From Haliscomenobacter hydrossis DSM 1100 (lineage in GTDB: Bacteria > Bacteroidota > Bacteroidia > Chitinophagales > Saprospiraceae): 64,000 nucleotides of DNA. The position numbers and the translations under genes were made by a program. The notes under the pieces were generated by a model. That model saw only the letters and a program-made list of their open reading frames with translations. It was not told where the DNA came from and searched no databases. Shown here in pieces: positions 17,545 to 24,764 of the stretch. Every line of letters begins with the position of its first letter. Within the stretch, counting starts at the first letter, position 1. The stretch spans positions 1,116,001-1,180,000 of the forward strand of contig NC_015510.1 in the NCBI RefSeq assembly GCF_000212735.1, written 5' to 3'.

Positions 17545-20043
17545 ATGATGCCCGAAACTAATTTTGACCAAAAAGGTTTGACCCAGGTAGAAGTAATCGC
17601 CGCTCGGGAAAAATACGGATACAACCGCTTGGACTACAAAAAAAGCAATGCCTTTTTGGATGCCCTGCTCAGTTTGGCCAAAGAGCCCATGGTGCTTCTG
17701 TTGCTCGTCGCCTCGGCCATTTATTTCATCAGTGGAAAAACCGGAGACGGAATTTTTTTGGCCTCGGCCATTGTACTGGTGGCCACCATTTCCCTGTACC
17801 AGGACTCCCGGAGCCGCAACGCGCTGGAGAAACTAAAAACCTTTACCCAACCCAATTGCAAAGTGATTCGGGAGGGCAAAGTCGAGGAAATCAAAAGTGA
17901 AGAATTGGTCGTTGGCGACAGCCTGATGGTGGAAGAAGGCACCTTAATCGCCGCAGACGGGGTCATCGTACATTCCAACGATTTTTCGGTCAATGAATCC
18001 ATCCTCACGGGTGAGTCTTTGTCCGTTTACAAAGACCAGAGCAAAGCAGACCATTTCATTTACAGTGGTACCACCGTGGCTAGCGGATTGGCGATTGCCA
18101 CCATCACCGCCATTGGAAGTGAGACCAAATTGGGGAAAATTGGCACCAGCCTCGAAAACATCCAGGAAGAACAAACACCCCTGGAGTTGCAGATCGGCAA
18201 TTTTGTAAAAAAAATGGTGATCGCTGGTGCCATTGTTTTTGTCATTGTTTGGGCCATCAATTATGTGCATTCCCGCGATGTGCTCGACAGTTTACTCAAA
18301 GCCCTCACCCTGGCCATGAGTATCCTGCCCGAAGAAATTCCCGTGGCCTTCACCACTTTCATGGCCCTGGGTGCCTGGCGCCTGATGAAAATGGGGATTG
18401 TGGTGAAACAAATGAAAACGGTGGAAACCCTCGGCAGCGCAACGGTCATCTGTACGGATAAAACCGGGACAATCACCGAAAACAAAATGAGCCTGGCCAA
18501 ATTGTACGTGCTGGAATCGAAAAAGATTACCACAGTGGAAGAAACCCTGGAGGACCCCGAAAAAGCGCTGATCCGACTGGCCATGTGGGCTTCCGAACCG
18601 ATCCCCTTTGACCCCATGGAAGTGGCCCTGCACGAGGCCTATGCCGCCGCAAGCACCCTGGATGAACGGCCCAGCTACAAAATGATCCACGAATACCCCC
18701 TGGATGGCCAGCCGCCCATGATGACCCATCTTTTTGAAAATGGAGAAGGCCAACGCATCATCGCCGCCAAAGGTGCTCCTGAGGCTTTGATGCAGCTAGC
18801 GAAGTTAAGTGCAACAGAAAAAAAACACCTCGATAAAGCCATTCACACGTTGGCATCTGACGGGTATCGTCTGCTGGGGGTGGCTGAAGCAATTTTTGCA
18901 GGCCATGATTTTCCGGCAACGCAACAAGAGTTCCCCTTCCAATTCAAGGGCCTGGTTGCTTTTTACGACCCGCCAAAGCACAACATTCAAAAGGTCTTGA
19001 AGGCTTTTTACAAAGCGGGCATCACCGTAAAAATTGTGACGGGCGACAATGCGGCTACCACCAGCGCCATTGCGCAGCAAGTTGGATTCAAAGGTTATGA
19101 AAAAAGCATTTCCGGAGATGAATTGATGAAATTGAGTGAGGAGAAATTGCAGGAATGTGTGCTCAACACCCAGGTATTTACCCGCATGTTTCCCGAGGCA
19201 AAACTGAAAATCATCAATGCCCTCAAAGCAAAAAATGAAATTGTGGCCATGACCGGCGATGGCGTCAACGACGGGCCCGCCCTCAAAGCCGCGCACATTG
19301 GGATTGCCATGGGCAAAAAAGGGAGCGAAATCGCCAAAGAAGCCGCTTCCCTGATTCTGGTGGAAGATGATTTGTCCAAAATGGTGGATGCGGTGGCGAT
19401 GGGCCGAAAAATTTATACCAACCTCAAAAAGGCCATTCAGTACATCATCTCCATCCACATCCCGATTGTGCTCACGGTGTTCATTCCCTTGGCCTTGGGC
19501 TGGATTTACCCCAACATTTTCACCCCCGTACACATCATCTTTTTGGAGTTGATCATGGGTCCTACCTGCTCCATCATTTATGAAAATGAGCCGATGGAAA
19601 AGAATACCATGTCGCAAAAACCTCGCCCCTTGAGCAATACTTTTTTCAATTGGAAGGAACTGACTACCAGCATCATCCAGGGTTTAATGATTACGTTAGG
19701 CACCTTGAGTGCGTATCAATACGCCGTATACGAAGGGTACAATGAAGCGATGACACGCACCATGGCTTTTACAGTGCTCATTTCCGCCAACATATTTCTG
19801 ACCCTGGTCAATCGTTCGTTTTTTTACTCCATCCTCACGACCCTCAAGTACAAGAACAATCTGGTGGCGCTGATCATTGGAGTGACCATTGCCATCACCG
19901 GGTTGCTGCTTTTTGTAAAACCCTTGGCGAAGTTTTTCGAGTTCGAACCCCTCAATCTATCTCAATTGGGCATTGCTGCGGGCATTGGTTTTGTGAGCGT
20001 CATTTGGTACGAGCTCGTGAAATGGAGAAAACGCGTGGTCTAA
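17545..20043 (+). CDS. P-type cation-transporting ATPase
   Basis: This 832-residue ATPase has all core P-type motifs: an N-terminal cation-ATPase domain (Gly-Leu-Thr...Tyr-Gly-Tyr-Asn-Arg-Leu), the actuator loop Leu-Thr-Gly-Glu-Ser, the phosphorylation motif Asp305-Lys-Thr-Gly-Thr, Thr-Gly-Asp-Asn, and the hinge Thr-Gly-Asp-Gly-Val-Asn-Asp. There is no N-terminal heavy-metal domain and no CPC motif. The M4 motif is Ile-Leu-Pro-Glu-Glu-Ile-Pro-Val, not the Pro-Glu-Gly-Leu of SERCA-type pumps. The M6 region reads Glu-Leu-Ile-Met-Gly-Pro-Thr-Cys-Ser, without the SERCA Thr-Asp-Gly. It therefore belongs to the bacterial subfamily IC-like group whose ion is uncertain; calcium or another divalent cation is possible. 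A palindrome lies at its promoter. Confidence 0.9.
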   Translation: MMPETNFDQKGLTQVEVIAAREKYGYNRLDYKKSNAFLDALLSLAKEPMVLLLLVASAIYFISGKTGDGIFLASAIVLVATISLYQDSRSRNALEKLKTFTQPNCKVIREGKVEEIKSEELVVGDSLMVEEGTLIAADGVIVHSNDFSVNESILTGESLSVYKDQSKADHFIYSGTTVASGLAIATITAIGSETKLGKIGTSLENIQEEQTPLELQIGNFVKKMVIAGAIVFVIVWAINYVHSRDVLDSLLKALTLAMSILPEEIPVAFTTFMALGAWRLMKMGIVVKQMKTVETLGSATVICTDKTGTITENKMSLAKLYVLESKKITTVEETLEDPEKALIRLAMWASEPIPFDPMEVALHEAYAAASTLDERPSYKMIHEYPLDGQPPMMTHLFENGEGQRIIAAKGAPEALMQLAKLSATEKKHLDKAIHTLASDGYRLLGVAEAIFAGHDFPATQQEFPFQFKGLVAFYDPPKHNIQKVLKAFYKAGITVKIVTGDNAATTSAIAQQVGFKGYEKSISGDELMKLSEEKLQECVLNTQVFTRMFPEAKLKIINALKAKNEIVAMTGDGVNDGPALKAAHIGIAMGKKGSEIAKEAASLILVEDDLSKMVDAVAMGRKIYTNLKKAIQYIISIHIPIVLTVFIPLALGWIYPNIFTPVHIIFLELIMGPTCSIIYENEPMEKNTMSQKPRPLSNTFFNWKELTTSIIQGLMITLGTLSAYQYAVYEGYNEAMTRTMAFTVLISANIFLTLVNRSFFYSILTTLKYKNNLVALIIGVTIAITGLLLFVKPLAKFFEFEPLNLSQLGIAAGIGFVSVIWYELVKWRKRVV

Positions 20044-20085: not shown

Positions 20086-20148
20086 GATACAATATCTATG
20101 GTTTTTCGTTTACCCAGTGCTACTTCCTCCGCATTAGAACAATTCTAA
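20086..20148 (+). pseudogene. Short remnant resembling the 3' end of a histidine kinase gene
   Basis: In the frame ending at the TAA at 20146-20148, the translation reads Asp-Thr-Ile-Ser-Met-Val-Phe-Arg-Leu-Pro-Ser-Ala before diverging. The kinase gene at 22065-23429 ends Gly-Thr-Thr-Val-Leu-Phe-Ser-Leu-Pro-Ser-Ala. At DNA level both share GTTTACCCAGTGC just before the same TTCTAAT promoter. This looks like the tail of a duplicated kinase-plus-promoter segment. It is short, so chance resemblance is possible, but the shared promoter next to it makes common descent likely. Confidence 0.5.
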
Positions 20149-20190
20149 TACCATTCTTATACCGTTCTAATTGGCTTCACTACATCTTTG
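20133..20190 (+). promoter_or_regulatory. Promoter with three 11-bp-spaced TTCTAAT repeats, upstream of the SPFH gene
   Basis: ATTAGAA (20133-20139) is followed by CAA and then TTCTAAT (20143-20149), TTCTTAT (20154-20160) and TTCTAAT (20165-20171). The three direct repeats start exactly 11 bp apart. A -7-like CATCTTTG (20183-20190) follows the last box by 11 nt, so the box occupies the -33 position. The ATG at 20214 is 23 nt further on. 7-bp repeats on an 11-bp period are how OmpR/PhoB-family regulators bind, and one is encoded at 21380. The same layout recurs at 23425-23482. Confidence 0.75.
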
Positions 20191-20213
20191 TTTTAACAAA
20201 AAAAAGACAAAGA

Positions 20214-21104
20214 ATGAATAGCAAGTCAAATGTCAATTTACTGATTGTGGTGTCAATATTGATGACCAGCTGTGCCACGGTCATGCCGGATCAAGTTGGG
20301 GTAAAACGCACCTTTGGTCGCATTCAAGACAATGTCAGACCTCCAGGTTTAGTTGGATTCAATCCATTCACGACGATGTTAGTTAGGGTGCCAATTCGAA
20401 CTATGAACCTAGCAATTACCGAAAATCTACCATCTAAAGAAGGCTTAACGATTCGCTCAGAAAGTTCAATTCTCTATCGAATCCAACCAAGTTCAGTACC
20501 CCAAATCCTGAAAGAAACGGGAATGGCTTTCGAAGAAATGTTGATCTTACCTGTTTTTCGCTCTGCCGCCTCGGATGTATGTTCGGAATATGACGCGAAA
20601 AACATGCACAGTTCGAAACGCGCCGAAATTGAAGAAAAGATTAAACAGCGTTTGATCGAAGTATGTGGCCCAAAAGGGTTTGTCATTGAATCCGTACTCC
20701 TGAAAAGCATTACACTACCTGCGGGCTTGTCAAAATCCATTGAAGCCAAACTTGAAGCCGAGCAAGATGCATTGCGCATGCAATTTGTACTCGACCGCCA
20801 AAAGCAAGAAGCACAACGCCAAATCATTGATGCCGAAGGCGCCAAAGAAATTGCCAGGATTCAAGCGGAAGGCAAGAAAAATGCCACGATCATTGACGCT
20901 GAAGCAAGAGCTCGTGGCAATGAAATTGAAGCAGAAGGCATTAAAAAAGCCAATGAATTGATTAGTTTAAGTCTTACCCCCAACGTATTAAAATTCAAAC
21001 AAATCGAAGCTTTCCAAAAACTATCAGCATCTCCCAATACCAAAACCATTGTCACTGATGGCAAAACGCCTATCGTAAATATGCTGGGAAATGAAGGGAA
21101 CTAA
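20214..21104 (+). CDS. SPFH/band-7 (prohibitin-like) lipoprotein
   Basis: This 296-residue protein has a lipoprotein signal with lipobox Met-Thr-Ser-Cys at about residue 20. It then reads Asp-Gln-Val-Gly-Val-Lys-Arg-Thr-Phe-Gly, the start of an SPFH domain (about 25-180). The second half (about 175-255) is a long Ala/Glu/Lys/Gln helix with repeated Asp/Glu-Ala-Glu-Gly motifs, as in prohibitin/HflK-like coiled coils. SPFH proteins form oligomeric rings on membranes and organise proteases or lipid domains. A lipid-anchored rather than transmembrane member would sit on the periplasmic side. It is a single-gene unit between a TTCTAAT-box promoter and the terminator at 21171-21223, so control by the adjacent two-component system is likely. 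Confidence 0.85.
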   Translation: MNSKSNVNLLIVVSILMTSCATVMPDQVGVKRTFGRIQDNVRPPGLVGFNPFTTMLVRVPIRTMNLAITENLPSKEGLTIRSESSILYRIQPSSVPQILKETGMAFEEMLILPVFRSAASDVCSEYDAKNMHSSKRAEIEEKIKQRLIEVCGPKGFVIESVLLKSITLPAGLSKSIEAKLEAEQDALRMQFVLDRQKQEAQRQIIDAEGAKEIARIQAEGKKNATIIDAEARARGNEIEAEGIKKANELISLSLTPNVLKFKQIEAFQKLSASPNTKTIVTDGKTPIVNMLGNEGN

Positions 21105-21170
21105 TCCTGTCACCATGTGAAAAAAAGCAAGATCAAAGTTATTTCTTCATCGTGCCAAAGACTTTTGATT

Positions 21171-21223
21171 GTAACAGGGTAGCAGTTGGGGTCGGTCGTG
21201 TATCCCGCTGCTACACTTTTTTT
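21171..21223 (+). terminator. Terminator after the SPFH gene
   Basis: GTAGCAG (21179-21185) pairs with CTGCTAC (21208-21214), with further GGG/CCC pairing inside, followed by ACTTTTTTT. The text GTAACAGGGTAGCAGTTGGG recurs in related form in the terminator at 24715-24764. It lies about 70 nt after the stop. Confidence 0.75.
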
Positions 21224-21319
21224 CTATAAGGCCATCATTTTCAAAAGGGCAAGATTGCTAAGGAATTGGCTGGAAATTCCCAGCAACATCCCGAACCAAT
21301 CCATTCGTTATTTGTTATT

Positions 21320-21359
21320 AATAGTAATACTATTATTTTTAATAGTATTATTATCTTTA
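21320..21359 (+). promoter_or_regulatory. AT-rich operator and -7 element of the response regulator/kinase operon
   Basis: The half-site AATAGTA occurs at 21320-21326, inverted at 21328-21334, and direct again at 21341-21347. This yields a 15-bp palindrome and a larger inverted repeat (AATACTATT, 6-nt loop, AATAGTATT). TATCTTTA (21352-21359) fits a -7 element, 20 nt before the ATG at 21380. These boxes differ from the TTCTAAT boxes, so the operon may have separate control. Confidence 0.5.
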
Positions 21360-21379
21360 CAGATGATTAACGATTGAGT

Positions 21380-22054
21380 ATGTCCAAAATTTTGATCATT
21401 GAAGATGAAGCGCAAATTGCAGGCTTGATCAGTCAAACACTACAGGAAATGAGTTTTAAAACCTTTGTAGCACTGGATTCATCAACAGCACTGGATCTGT
21501 TTGACCTCATCAGCCCGCAATTGGTCATTACTGATCTGGTCATGCCCCAAGTCAGTGGGCATGAATTGTGTGCACAAATTCGCAATCGAAAACGTTCGAT
21601 CCCCATCCTTATGCTTACCGCATTGGGCAGTACCGAAGACATTGTAAAAGGGCTGGATAATGGCGCGGATGACTACATGGTCAAACCATTTCGGATACCT
21701 GAATTACAAGCTAGAGTGCGGGCATTATTGCGTCGCTCAGCATCCAATACTACGGCACAAATCAGCAGGTTAGCAGATTTAGTACTCAATCACGATACCA
21801 AAGAGGTAAGTCGTAACAATGAATCCATTAAGCTTACCGCAACTGAATTTCGCTTGCTGGAATATTTAATGAGCCATAAAGGCCGACTGAAGGCCCGCAT
21901 GGAAATTTTAGAGGAGGTATGGGGAATCAATTTTGACCCTGGCACCAATGTAGTTGATGTTTACGTCAGCTATTTGCGCAATAAAATTGACAAACCTTTT
22001 GAAAAAAAATTGCTCCACACCCAAATTGGCCAGGGCTTCATCCTGAAAGAATAA
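21380..22054 (+). CDS. OmpR/PhoB-family response regulator
   Basis: This 224-residue protein has a receiver domain (about 2-118) with acidic residues Glu8-Asp9, the phosphoacceptor Asp52 (Ile-Thr-Asp-Leu-Val-Met-Pro), Thr80 and Lys102 in Val-Lys-Pro-Phe. A C-terminal winged helix (about 130-222) follows, with Leu-Thr-Ala-Thr-Glu-Phe-Arg-Leu-Leu and Val-Asp-Val-Tyr-Val-Ser-Tyr-Leu-Arg-Asn-Lys. All phosphotransfer residues are intact. It is 10 nt upstream of its cognate kinase. The start is the ATG at 21380, not the TTG two codons earlier. The 11-bp-spaced repeats on either side of the operon are the expected binding-site type; that it binds them is inference. Confidence 0.95.
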   Translation: MSKILIIEDEAQIAGLISQTLQEMSFKTFVALDSSTALDLFDLISPQLVITDLVMPQVSGHELCAQIRNRKRSIPILMLTALGSTEDIVKGLDNGADDYMVKPFRIPELQARVRALLRRSASNTTAQISRLADLVLNHDTKEVSRNNESIKLTATEFRLLEYLMSHKGRLKARMEILEEVWGINFDPGTNVVDVYVSYLRNKIDKPFEKKLLHTQIGQGFILKE

Positions 22055-22064
22055 TTCGTTTGAT

Positions 22065-23429
22065 ATGCGTTTCTGGCAACTCAACATTCGTCAACGGCTG
22101 ACCATTTTCATCTCTATATCATCTTTCCTGATTTTGTTACTGGAAGGCTTTTTCATCTATAATCATATGGTAAAATTCTGTAAAAAAGAATTCAAAAGCC
22201 GCATCAAACAACGATTAGCTGAAGCTGATTCCTTGATTATCCGTGACCCAAACTATCCCTTTACTGCAATTGGCAATTTGCCACCCGGTAGCCTTCCTGA
22301 AGAAAAATTCGCCTATACCAAAGAATCAAATCAAATTCTATTACCCAACGGTGATCACCAATCCTCAGCCATTGATACCCTCAAACAAAAACATTGTACA
22401 TATTGCTTTCTTCGCTTAAACCAACGTGACTATGGTATACTTTATGACTCCACGAATCACCATACTTTAATTTTGTCCGCCTATGATCGCTATGGACAAA
22501 GCAAATTGCGTTCGTTGCGTCATGGTATCATTGTTGGTATTTTAATTGGAGTAATCCTTCTATCACTAGTCAGTTGGTTTTGGCTAACAAAATTTTTGCA
22601 ACCCATTTCCGCTAAAATCCAAAAAGCCCGTACCATCGGGACACACAACCTCAACTTGCGTCTAGAAGTAAAAAACAGTCACGACGAACTAGGCCAATTG
22701 GCACTAACCTTCAATGAAATGCTGGATCGCATTGAGGCCGGGTTCCTCTTTCAACAGCAATTCATCCGCAATGCATCTCATGAAATACGTACTCCACTTA
22801 CTGCCATTACAGCCGAAGTAGACCTGGCTCTGCAAAAAAATCGCAATCCTGAAAAGTACCAACACGCGCTAGAAAACATCAGGCAAAGGGCTGGACAACT
22901 CAATGAATTGGTAACCCAGCTGCTTCTGCTGGCAAAGGTAGAAGCCAACACCACCATCAATCAACAACTTTGCGCCGCAGATGAAATCCTTTTATTTGTA
23001 GTCAAAAATTTGCAATTCAAATATGTGCAAATCAAGGAAATTCTCAGTTTAAAACTTGAAGCAGCCGACTCAACTCAATTTCAAGTTTACTGTGATCATA
23101 TTCTTTTGCAGGCGGCTTTTTACAATTTACTCGACAATGCCCTAAAGTATGGCAACAATAAACCTGTTGTGACCCGGCTATTTCGATCCAACAACCTACT
23201 GTGTTTGGAAATTATAGATCGCGGAATCGGCATTGACCCCAAAGAATTGGAACACTTGTTTGAGCCTTTTTACCGCATCAATCGCCTCAATCATCCTCTG
23301 GGCAGTGGAATTGGATTGTCGTTGGTAAAGTCCATTGCCGAGAGGTTTGGTGGCAGTATTCAGCTAACTTCTCAACTAGGCCAAGGCACTACGGTGCTAT
23401 TTAGTTTACCCAGTGCAATTCAAGATTAG
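22065..23429 (+). CDS. Membrane sensor histidine kinase
   Basis: This 454-residue kinase has a first membrane span at about 14-32, a periplasmic region of about 115 residues with a Cys-Thr-Tyr-Cys pair near residue 112, a second span at about 148-170, a HAMP segment, and a HisKA domain with His239 in Ser-His-Glu-Ile-Arg-Thr-Pro. The HATPase domain has Asn-Leu-Leu-Asp-Asn-Ala-Leu-Lys-Tyr (N box), Asp-Arg-Gly-Ile-Gly-Ile (G1) and Gly-Ser-Gly-Ile-Gly-Leu-Ser-Leu-Val-Lys (G2). The Cys-x-x-Cys could make the sensor redox- or metal-responsive; that is inference. The last codons overlap the start of the next promoter: the TAG stop lies inside ATTAGAA of the TTCTAAT box region. Confidence 0.95.
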   Translation: MRFWQLNIRQRLTIFISISSFLILLLEGFFIYNHMVKFCKKEFKSRIKQRLAEADSLIIRDPNYPFTAIGNLPPGSLPEEKFAYTKESNQILLPNGDHQSSAIDTLKQKHCTYCFLRLNQRDYGILYDSTNHHTLILSAYDRYGQSKLRSLRHGIIVGILIGVILLSLVSWFWLTKFLQPISAKIQKARTIGTHNLNLRLEVKNSHDELGQLALTFNEMLDRIEAGFLFQQQFIRNASHEIRTPLTAITAEVDLALQKNRNPEKYQHALENIRQRAGQLNELVTQLLLLAKVEANTTINQQLCAADEILLFVVKNLQFKYVQIKEILSLKLEAADSTQFQVYCDHILLQAAFYNLLDNALKYGNNKPVVTRLFRSNNLLCLEIIDRGIGIDPKELEHLFEPFYRINRLNHPLGSGIGLSLVKSIAERFGGSIQLTSQLGQGTTVLFSLPSAIQD

Positions 23430-23482
23430 AACAATTCTAATCCTATTCTTATCTCATTCTAATGCGCTAAACTGCATCTTTA
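23425..23482 (+). promoter_or_regulatory. Second copy of the TTCTAAT promoter, upstream of the CBS gene
   Basis: ATTAGAA (23425-23431), CAA, then TTCTAAT (23435-23441), TTCTTAT (23446-23452) and TTCTAAT (23457-23463) repeat the layout at 20133-20190 base for base in spacing. CATCTTTA (23475-23482) occupies the -7 position, again 11 nt after the last box. The ATG at 23519 is 36 nt downstream. The kinase stop codon is inside the first half-site, so kinase and promoter overlap. Confidence 0.75.
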
Positions 23483-23518: not shown

Positions 23519-23926
23519 ATGAAGACCATTAAGCAACTGATGAGTAGTTTGGTCGTGGTGGCCAATGCTCAATCTACCTTTGACAACCTAATGCAGTTGA
23601 TGACTCAGTACAACATTAGCGCCATACCAATTACCCATGAAGGAGCAAAGCAAGCGATCATTGGCATTGTAACCGAACTCGATTTGCGTAATTGGAAAGA
23701 CACCAACTTAACCGCAATGAGTTTGATGAGTACTCGGCTTTGTTACATCAACGGTGATGATTCAGCCGCTAATGCAGCAAACCTAATGTTGAAGAATCGG
23801 ATCCATCATTTGTTGGTCAAAGACAAAAAACACGATACTTTAATAGGCATTCTCAGTTCAGTAGATTTACTCAAACTAGTAGCCAGTCAGTCATTTACTG
23901 CGCAGCCTATTTTATTTTTTGTGTAA
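23519..23926 (+). CDS. Two-CBS-domain protein
   Basis: This 135-residue protein consists of a CBS pair (about 1-60 and 68-130). Each half has the typical Ala-Ile-Pro-Ile-Thr / His-Leu-Leu-Val-Lys strand and an Ile-Gly-Ile-Val-Thr-Glu-Leu-Asp-Leu / Ile-Gly-Ile-Leu-Ser-Ser-Val-Asp-Leu ending. Stand-alone CBS pairs bind adenine nucleotides and act as energy or ionic-strength sensors for a partner protein. No signal peptide, so it is cytoplasmic. It leads a unit with the carbonic anhydrase, whose ATG is 52 nt downstream with no terminator between. The unit starts at a TTCTAAT promoter, so two-component control is expected. Confidence 0.85.
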   Translation: MKTIKQLMSSLVVVANAQSTFDNLMQLMTQYNISAIPITHEGAKQAIIGIVTELDLRNWKDTNLTAMSLMSTRLCYINGDDSAANAANLMLKNRIHHLLVKDKKHDTLIGILSSVDLLKLVASQSFTAQPILFFV

Positions 23927-23978: not shown

Positions 23979-24695
23979 ATGGTACAGAAAATGTTTAAGC
24001 CTTTTTTGGGCTTCGTCGTTTGTTTATTCACCTTTGCTTGCCAACCCGGCAACCAACAAGAATCTACCTCAGCCCAAACCACAGATTTGGTCAGCACAAC
24101 ACCGGCAACCGAACTTCCTTATCCACAAACTCCTGATGAAGCGATAGCTAGACTTAAAGAAGGAAATGCCCGCTTTCTCAATGATCAATCAGCACACCCC
24201 AATCGCGATGACAACCGCAAAATCATTCAAGCACAGAAACAGACTCCTTTTGCCAGCATCATGGGGTGTAGCGACAGCCGTGTACCGGCTGAAATTGTTT
24301 TTGATCAAGGATTAGGGGACTTATTCATCGTTCGTACGGCAGGCCAAGCACCTGCAATTGCTTCGTTTGGTTCGCTAGAATTTTCAGTGGCCGTACTGGG
24401 GGTTAAAGTAATTGTCGTCATGGGCCACGAAAAATGTGGCGCAGTAGCCGGTGCCATTGGTACGGAAAAACTTCCTGGACACATTGAAGATCTAGTCAAT
24501 ATCATTCGCCCGGGGGTTCATGCATTTATTGGGAAACCAGATCAGCTGGAAGCAGCCAGTAAAGCCAACGTCCTGGCGGAAGTCGAATCACTCAAAAAGC
24601 TGGATCCAATTCTATCCCAATACATAAAAGAGGGCAAAATCAAGATTATTCCGGCTTATTACCACCTAGAAACAGGTCAAGTCGAGTTTTTATAA
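23979..24695 (+). CDS. Lipoprotein beta-class carbonic anhydrase
   Basis: From the ATG at 23979 the protein has 238 residues. A lipoprotein signal has the lipobox Phe-Thr-Phe-Ala-Cys near residue 21, followed by a Gln/Ser/Thr-rich linker to about residue 50. The beta-CA zinc ligands are present: Cys97-Ser-Asp99-Ser-Arg101 and His150-Glu-Lys-Cys153-Gly. The active site is therefore intact and would interconvert CO2 and bicarbonate in the periplasm or at the outer membrane. Lipidated beta-CAs are less usual than cytoplasmic ones. A second in-frame ATG at 23991 is possible. It shares a unit with the CBS gene and is closed by the hairpin at 24715-24764. Confidence 0.9.
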   Translation: MVQKMFKPFLGFVVCLFTFACQPGNQQESTSAQTTDLVSTTPATELPYPQTPDEAIARLKEGNARFLNDQSAHPNRDDNRKIIQAQKQTPFASIMGCSDSRVPAEIVFDQGLGDLFIVRTAGQAPAIASFGSLEFSVAVLGVKVIVVMGHEKCGAVAGAIGTEKLPGHIEDLVNIIRPGVHAFIGKPDQLEAASKANVLAEVESLKKLDPILSQYIKEGKIKIIPAYYHLETGQVEFL

Positions 24696-24714
24696 GATTT
24701 TTATTGTAACCTTG

Positions 24715-24764
24715 GGGTAGCAGTTAGGATAAATTTTCTTATCCTACTGCTGTACCCTTTAATT
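24715..24764 (+). terminator. Terminator after the carbonic anhydrase gene
   Basis: GGGTAGCAGTTAGGATAA (24715-24732) pairs with a slightly bulged complement ending at 24757 around a short loop, then TTTAATTT follows. It lies 20 nt after the stop. Its left arm and the preceding TTGTAAC match the terminator of the SPFH gene (21171-21223), pointing to common origin. Confidence 0.75.

Follow-up and report, generated by a model that had tools for sequence, protein, structure and literature searches.

To our knowledge, the operators of classical (non-hybrid) response regulators (RRs) of Bacteroidota are scarcely known. This study concerns a 64,000-nucleotide window of the Haliscomenobacter hydrossis DSM 1100 genome (assembly GCF_000212735.1, contig NC_015510.1, positions 1,116,001 to 1,180,000 of the forward strand; positions below are those of the window unless C1 or a locus handle precedes them). 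Two arrays of 7-bp TTCTAAT-type boxes stand here on either side of the genes for an SPFH protein, an OmpR/PhoB-type RR (RR1) and its sensor histidine kinase (HK1), one upstream of the SPFH gene (promoter 1) and the other upstream of genes for a two-CBS-domain protein and a carbonic anhydrase (promoter 2). Judged from sequence comparison, these boxes are very probably tandem operators of RR1, which would activate the SPFH gene from promoter 1 and the CBS-carbonic anhydrase unit from promoter 2.

The closest solved relative of RR1 is Mycobacterium tuberculosis PhoP (PDB 3r0j, 5ed4), which binds 7-bp direct repeats whose spacer must be exactly 4 bp, and whose binding can extend to trimers and tetramers. 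In the solved complex with DNA, Tyr220 forms a hydrogen bond with C5 of T4CACAGC, and Glu215 makes contact with C19', the base paired with G9 (PMC4832192). The H. hydrossis system shares with PhoP the 7-bp boxes, the 4-bp spacer, a near-identical recognition helix (NVVESYVSYLRRKID versus NVVDVYVSYLRNKID) and, presumably, tandem head-to-tail binding up to trimers or tetramers, with a Tyr reading a C close to the box's 5' end. It differs in its box (TTCTAAT rather than TCACAGC) and phylum; PhoP acts at -10/-35 promoters, and its operator does not lie in the kinase 3' end as a rule. The pho-box operators of PhoB, OmpR and KdpE likewise consist of direct repeats of about one turn that replace the upstream promoter element, but their letters are different, and here three to four boxes (up to six) are locked to a -7 element, TAnnTTTG, at 10 nt. 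The heavy-metal CzcR/CopR/CusR systems are the best-scoring named families for both proteins, although RR1 stays below the curated cut-off of TIGR01387 (CzcR/CopR; 200.9 versus 279.2 bits) and HK1 below that of TIGR01386 (CzcS/CopS; 193.5 versus 292.55 bits). One branch of the array-bearing systems adjoins RND exporters, but many of the target genes encode SulP, bestrophin or carbonic anhydrase and not metal efflux. The RprY and Bacteroidota PhoB equivalogs also remain below their curated cut-offs (117.1 versus 370 and 158.3 versus 270). For Riemerella anatipestifer PhoP, also an OmpR-type regulator of Bacteroidota, a motif has been mapped whose core, TTTAACA, resembles the T-type boxes of Phe regulators described below; however, this regulator has hundreds of genome-wide sites and an autoregulatory site upstream of phoPR (PMC9603813), where the present system has few sites, past the kinase. 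The open-access literature on TTCTAAT, on SulP, USP or carbonic anhydrase with a kinase, and on bestrophin with a kinase yielded no description of this system.

In the window, the pattern ATTAGAACAATTCTAAT-N4-TTCTTAT-N4-TTCTAAT occurs in two exact copies of 39 bp, at 20133-20171 and 23425-23463, some 3.3 kb apart, each followed 11 nt past the last box by CATCTTT, precisely as the earlier note had described. Every feature reported here from promoter 1 to the carbonic anhydrase gene lies on the + strand. Promoter 1 comprises an inverted half-box ATTAGAA (20133..20139), a putative operator (20143..20171) with boxes TTCTAAT (20143-20149), TTCTTAT (20154-20160) and TTCTAAT (20165-20171), and the putative, degenerate -7 element CATCTTTG (20183..20190), 11 nt past the last box. 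Promoter 2 repeats this arrangement, with ATTAGAA at 23425..23431, including the HK1 stop codon TAG, a putative operator at 23435..23463 (TTCTAAT 23435-23441, TTCTTAT 23446-23452, TTCTAAT 23457-23463) and the putative, degenerate -7 element CATCTTTA (23475..23482). CATCTTT is probably a degenerate version of the Bacteroidota -7 box, consensus TAnnTTTG (PMC9723704, PMC7366714), and not a -10 box; the upstream promoter element that the boxes would replace is the Bacteroidota -33 rather than the -35 of the earlier note. The inverted half-box is conserved between both copies.

The possibility that these repeats arose by chance or as a neutral tandem repeat without regulatory role was weighed against several pattern searches. 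The three-box part has two matches in the window even at three mismatches, and none in 100 dinucleotide shuffles, so that none is expected there by chance. Between the two copies, the box letters agree at 21 of 21 positions and the spacer letters at 3 of 8, which points to selection on the boxes. Across the whole 8.77-Mb genome, up to three mismatches return the two window copies and one further site, C1:543739-543778 (in two overlapping registers), and the reversed pattern returns four matches; the loose pattern alone is therefore not significant genome-wide, and weight is placed on exact matches and context. Loose versions do run at chance level in AT-rich genomes: a search of 149 relatives with the loose three-box pattern was set aside as mostly AT-rich noise at control level, its best matches falling 3' of kinases. 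With place, strand, period and -7 spacing conserved throughout the phylum, and with the covariation with the regulator described below, an origin by chance can practically be discounted.

Kinases related to HK1 and to its paralog HK2 were gathered from named genomes and 396 Bacteroidota genomes, and a box matrix built from 8 loci was run on their 3' flanks (-30 to +350). A four-box array reached the shuffle floor (p 0.005) in 84 of 116 flanks; with duplicates removed and a score of at least 14, 81 of 114 clade kinases have YTCTAAY boxes at or just past the stop codon. These loci and the window share the 7-bp direct repeats, 4-bp spacer and exact 11-bp period, about one turn, that are expected of OmpR/PhoB-type operators. 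Averaged over the 116 flanks, the best four-box score was 20 with a period of 11, between -6 and -10 with periods of 8, 9, 10, 12, 13 and 14, and -11 both on the reverse strand and in shuffles, so that the signal is restricted to period 11 and the kinase strand. At many loci, box 1 begins 6 nt ahead of the end of the reading frame, the last codon and stop (TTC-TAA) lying inside the box. In control sets, none of the 62 flanks taken from non-clade kinases, most of them of other phyla, had an array, and 30 other HisKA kinase loci of the same genomes as the clade kinases (96 kb, either strand) gave a single weak array. An independent genome-wide pattern search covered 62 genomes and returned 75 arrays after merging; 39 lie no more than 500 bp 3' of a listed kinase, and the reversed pattern matched seven times. 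Upstream of clade RR genes, weak arrays were present in 3 of 91 regions, and none upstream of RR1; autoregulation through the boxes was rejected as a rule on these counts. The layout of RR, kinase, operator and target, with the operator at or just past the kinase stop, would thus be usual for this clade throughout Bacteroidota, and the cognate target of such a regulator can be found by looking past the kinase gene.

At most clade loci where a sigma-A -7 element is recognisable, the array stands at a fixed distance from it. TAnnTTTG, with at least 5 of its 6 letters, has its start 10 nt past the last box at 54 of 71 such loci and 22 nt past it, about one further turn, at 9 of 71. Published Bacteroidota maps place the -7 element at -12 to -5 (PMC9723704), so the last box would fall at about -29 to -23, in the -33 region. 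Phosphorylated RR1 would probably bind in head-to-tail order along one helix face, with a protomer at each 11-bp step, the protomer on the last box occupying the -33 position and recruiting RNA polymerase to the adjoining -7. The same proximity of the last box to the -7 could suit a repressor, as OmpR-family regulators are able to repress, and RR1 bound there might block RNA polymerase. The fixed 10-nt step with its second peak at 22 is nevertheless the spacing of polymerase-contacting activators, and the arrays lie upstream of the -7, neither over it nor downstream; repression is accordingly held improbable, and activation by RR1 is favored.

The letters of the boxes vary with the linked regulator. 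RR1 (21380..22054) combines a receiver (PF00072) with a Trans_reg_C winged helix (PF00486), and its recognition helix TNVVDVYVSYLRNKID (T189-D204; 21944..21991) carries D193 and Y198 (codon 21971-21973), the latter being the proposed specificity residue. For loci with both an array and a linked RR, we asked how well each RR alignment column (approximately 225) predicts the box letters, with a matrix that favors neither C nor T at box position 3. At 81 loci, helix position 10 (RR1 Tyr198), Tyr versus Phe, was the best column for a C at box position 3 (eta2 0.49, next 0.18). It again ranked first at 28 further loci (0.63), where the next columns are close (0.61, 0.60), and at the combined loci (0.58, next 0.31). 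Phe regulators have T boxes in 20 of 20 cases and Tyr regulators C boxes in 80 of 85. An RR-only tree gave two supported pairs; an RR+HK tree (helix excluded) was used in its place, on which the residue changes seven times with five supported independent pairs, the box shifting in the same direction as the residue in four to five of the five and never in the opposite one, although with so few pairs a sign test cannot fall below 0.05. Helix position 5, Asp or Glu, tracks T or G at box position 7, also inside the Tyr-only and Phe-only subsets; this second rule is weaker, because several other columns tie for that base, and no single residue was established to set box position 7 with the clarity seen at position 3.

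Both positions have counterparts in M. tuberculosis PhoP, whose DNA contacts played no part in picking the covarying columns. Tyr220 corresponds to helix position 10 and Glu215 to helix position 5, and in the register set here, PhoP C5 equals box position 3, which puts G9 at box position 7. Of the two residue-to-base rules proposed, the first agrees with the published crystal structure of this distant relative. Covariation and PhoP contacts together point, indirectly, to base reading by the recognition helix, each protomer probably reading YTCTAAY and Tyr198 the C at box position 3. As one regulator residue predicts one box letter, this DNA code is directly testable. We lean, with moderate confidence, towards a joint proposal: one phylum-wide operator grammar, in which tandem boxes of 11-bp period begin at the kinase stop codon and are followed by the -7 at a fixed 10-nt step, combined with a near-orthogonal code in which helix 10 Tyr/Phe sets box-3 C/T and helix 5 Asp/Glu sets box-7 T/G, new systems being recruited when the kinase tail is copied together with its operator, as would have happened in H. 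hydrossis. If true, thousands of regulators as yet uncharacterised could have both their targets and their specificity read from sequence.

The earlier note had named the regulator at 21380 as the putative reader of the boxes, and the same arrays 3' of related kinases, the residue-letter covariation and the PhoP analogy all speak for it; that the boxes serve SPFH and CBS/carbonic anhydrase is well supported, if indirectly, with activation as the probable mode. The regulon is not the purely local one that the earlier note had proposed. Only one other place in the genome matches at up to two mismatches; it overlaps the 3' end of the HK2 gene, lies in front of genes for a USP-like protein and a SulP transporter, and stands beside a paralogous regulator (RR2) that shares the code residues Asp and Tyr with RR1. 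This second regulator could thus share the boxes, and cross-regulation between RR1 and RR2 is possible.

Several points weigh against the attribution to RR1. RR2, carrying the same code, could bind the same sites in H. hydrossis; the window promoters depart slightly from the norm, in that they have three boxes where four are usual and a degenerate -7 that starts 11 nt rather than 10 nt past the last box; the tested flank contains no array for 33 of the 114 clade kinases, and in a second, more distant kinase set the array is present in 28 of 66 (38 without). Moreover, 8 of the 114 loci served as the matrix training set, and 4 of 13 new Tyr loci were fetched via a C-containing pattern. The first of these points gives rise to an alternative in which the boxes are operators of the clade but are served in H. 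hydrossis mainly by RR2 or by both paralogs, RR1 not being the main activator. The array of the same type in the 3' flank of RR2-HK2 and the Asp and Tyr of the RR2 helix fit such a reading, but arrays normally adjoin their own RR-HK pair, as promoter 2 adjoins HK1, and the congeners without RR1-HK1 have no boxes at SPFH. This alternative appears unlikely, if the most serious of those considered, and RR1 is retained as the candidate regulator of both promoters. A third related RR-HK pair, at C1:7934307 (L349), has a Phe helix and TTTTAAG boxes, as does its congener ortholog L347, and its kinase frame is interrupted; the orthologs of this kinase are intact in two congeners. With two TTCTAAT-box systems and one Phe-helix/TTTTAAG system, insulation between paralogs can be tested inside a single genome.

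The two window promoters are duplicates of one another, aligning over 95 bp at 77% identity (E 2e-16); the earlier note had treated them as two instances, and both are real, but they are not independent. The 13-bp sequence GTTTACCCAGTGC precedes both arrays: the copy at 23404-23416 belongs to the 3' end of the HK1 reading frame, and the copy at 20108..20120 (+ strand), upstream of promoter 1, is a geneless relic of such a kinase end. In three congeners (G001, G002 and G004), SPFH is 92-94% identical and stands behind another promoter, without boxes; G004 has the CBS gene directly 3' of SPFH. No HK1 counterpart was found across the genus at E 1e-60. The idea that the boxes are a property of the target genes was rejected, since these congeners keep SPFH without them. 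Relatives that keep the operon without boxes had been named beforehand as evidence against the proposed regulon; as these lack both the RR-HK pair and the boxes, they are informative and not fatal. A relic of the congeners' SPFH promoter now lies 5' of the RR1 gene (21293..21358; 80% identity to the L167 SPFH upstream region, E 7e-12). The upstream regions in the congeners (L167, L168 and L169) contain another conserved repeat, AATAGTATTA, about two turns apart, and a single conserved TTCTTAC; a different regulator may act there.

The simplest reading, with a tentative order of events, is that an RR-HK-operator unit entered an SPFH-CBS operon and that the segment was then duplicated, each copy later losing other parts than its twin, which would leave two operons under one shared operator type. 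SPFH and CBS-carbonic anhydrase were apparently captured via the duplicated kinase-tail-plus-operator segment. Such an origin, marked by the kinase-end relic, would also be expected if promoter 1 were a dead leftover of the duplication and promoter 2 alone worked. However, promoter 1 has kept every box letter despite changed spacers and flanks and has the better -7 (CATCTTTG), and the ancestral SPFH promoter is lost, its relic being 5' of RR1; a dead promoter 1 is thus quite improbable, and two working promoters under RR1 are preferred.

The gene order of the locus is P-type ATPase (17545-20043), promoter 1, SPFH, hairpin, RR1, HK1, promoter 2, two-CBS protein, carbonic anhydrase and a DUF2490 protein. 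The presumed target of promoter 1 (20214..21104; SPFH/Band 7, PF01145, 4e-28) has a lipobox-like N-terminus (LMTSC) and is followed by a terminator-like hairpin (21178..21224); a related hairpin sits 3' of the carbonic anhydrase gene, at about 24700-24760. HK1 (22065..23429) has a CxxC (HCTYC) in its sensor region (22383-22440) that is missing from HK2 and the other aligned clade kinases. The presumed targets of promoter 2 are the two-CBS-domain protein (23519..23926; PF00571) and the beta-class carbonic anhydrase (23979..24695; PF00484, 6e-36). The carbonic anhydrase, like the SPFH protein, starts with a lipobox-like signal sequence, so that both may sit outside the inner membrane, a location that would be unusual for SPFH proteins. 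Two further carbonic anhydrase genes, C1:657818-658522 and C1:1020627-1021331, have equal scores (132.5 bits, 42% to the window copy) and are probably a recent duplication.

Across the clade, the first genes past the arrays are mainly USP with bestrophin, USP with DUF1275, USP with SulP, SulP with beta-carbonic anhydrase, parts of RND exporters, MgtC and P-type ATPases. SulP-beta-carbonic anhydrase fusion genes (PF00916 and PF00484) lie directly past arrays at L334 (1397-3781) and L335 (4192-6621), and the carbonic anhydrase of promoter 2 fits this series of array-linked targets. The repeated occurrence of SulP, bestrophin and carbonic anhydrase genes among the targets hints at bicarbonate/CO2 or anion balance as the signal in one branch, an unexplored sensor branch that is thereby linked to these genes, and the RND exporters hint at metals in another; bicarbonate/CO2 as a shared signal is a guess.

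Among 20 stretches around the remaining arrays of the 62-genome search, those not assigned to a listed kinase, several adjoin further RR-HK pairs or precede SulP or MgtC genes. In G134, five- to six-box TTCTAAT arrays (L035 6485-6557, L036 6306-6367) lie 5' of two different serine-recombinase-like genes (N-terminus ..VVYTRVSSKEQADTNLSLDFQ..) and adjoin no RR-HK pair. In the Saprospiraceae G011 and G017 (L049 5957-6018, L050 6024-6063), six- and four-box arrays ending in CTCTAAC precede outer-membrane-type genes, likewise with no adjacent RR-HK pair, and TACCTTTG/TACTTTTG are located 22 nt past the last box.

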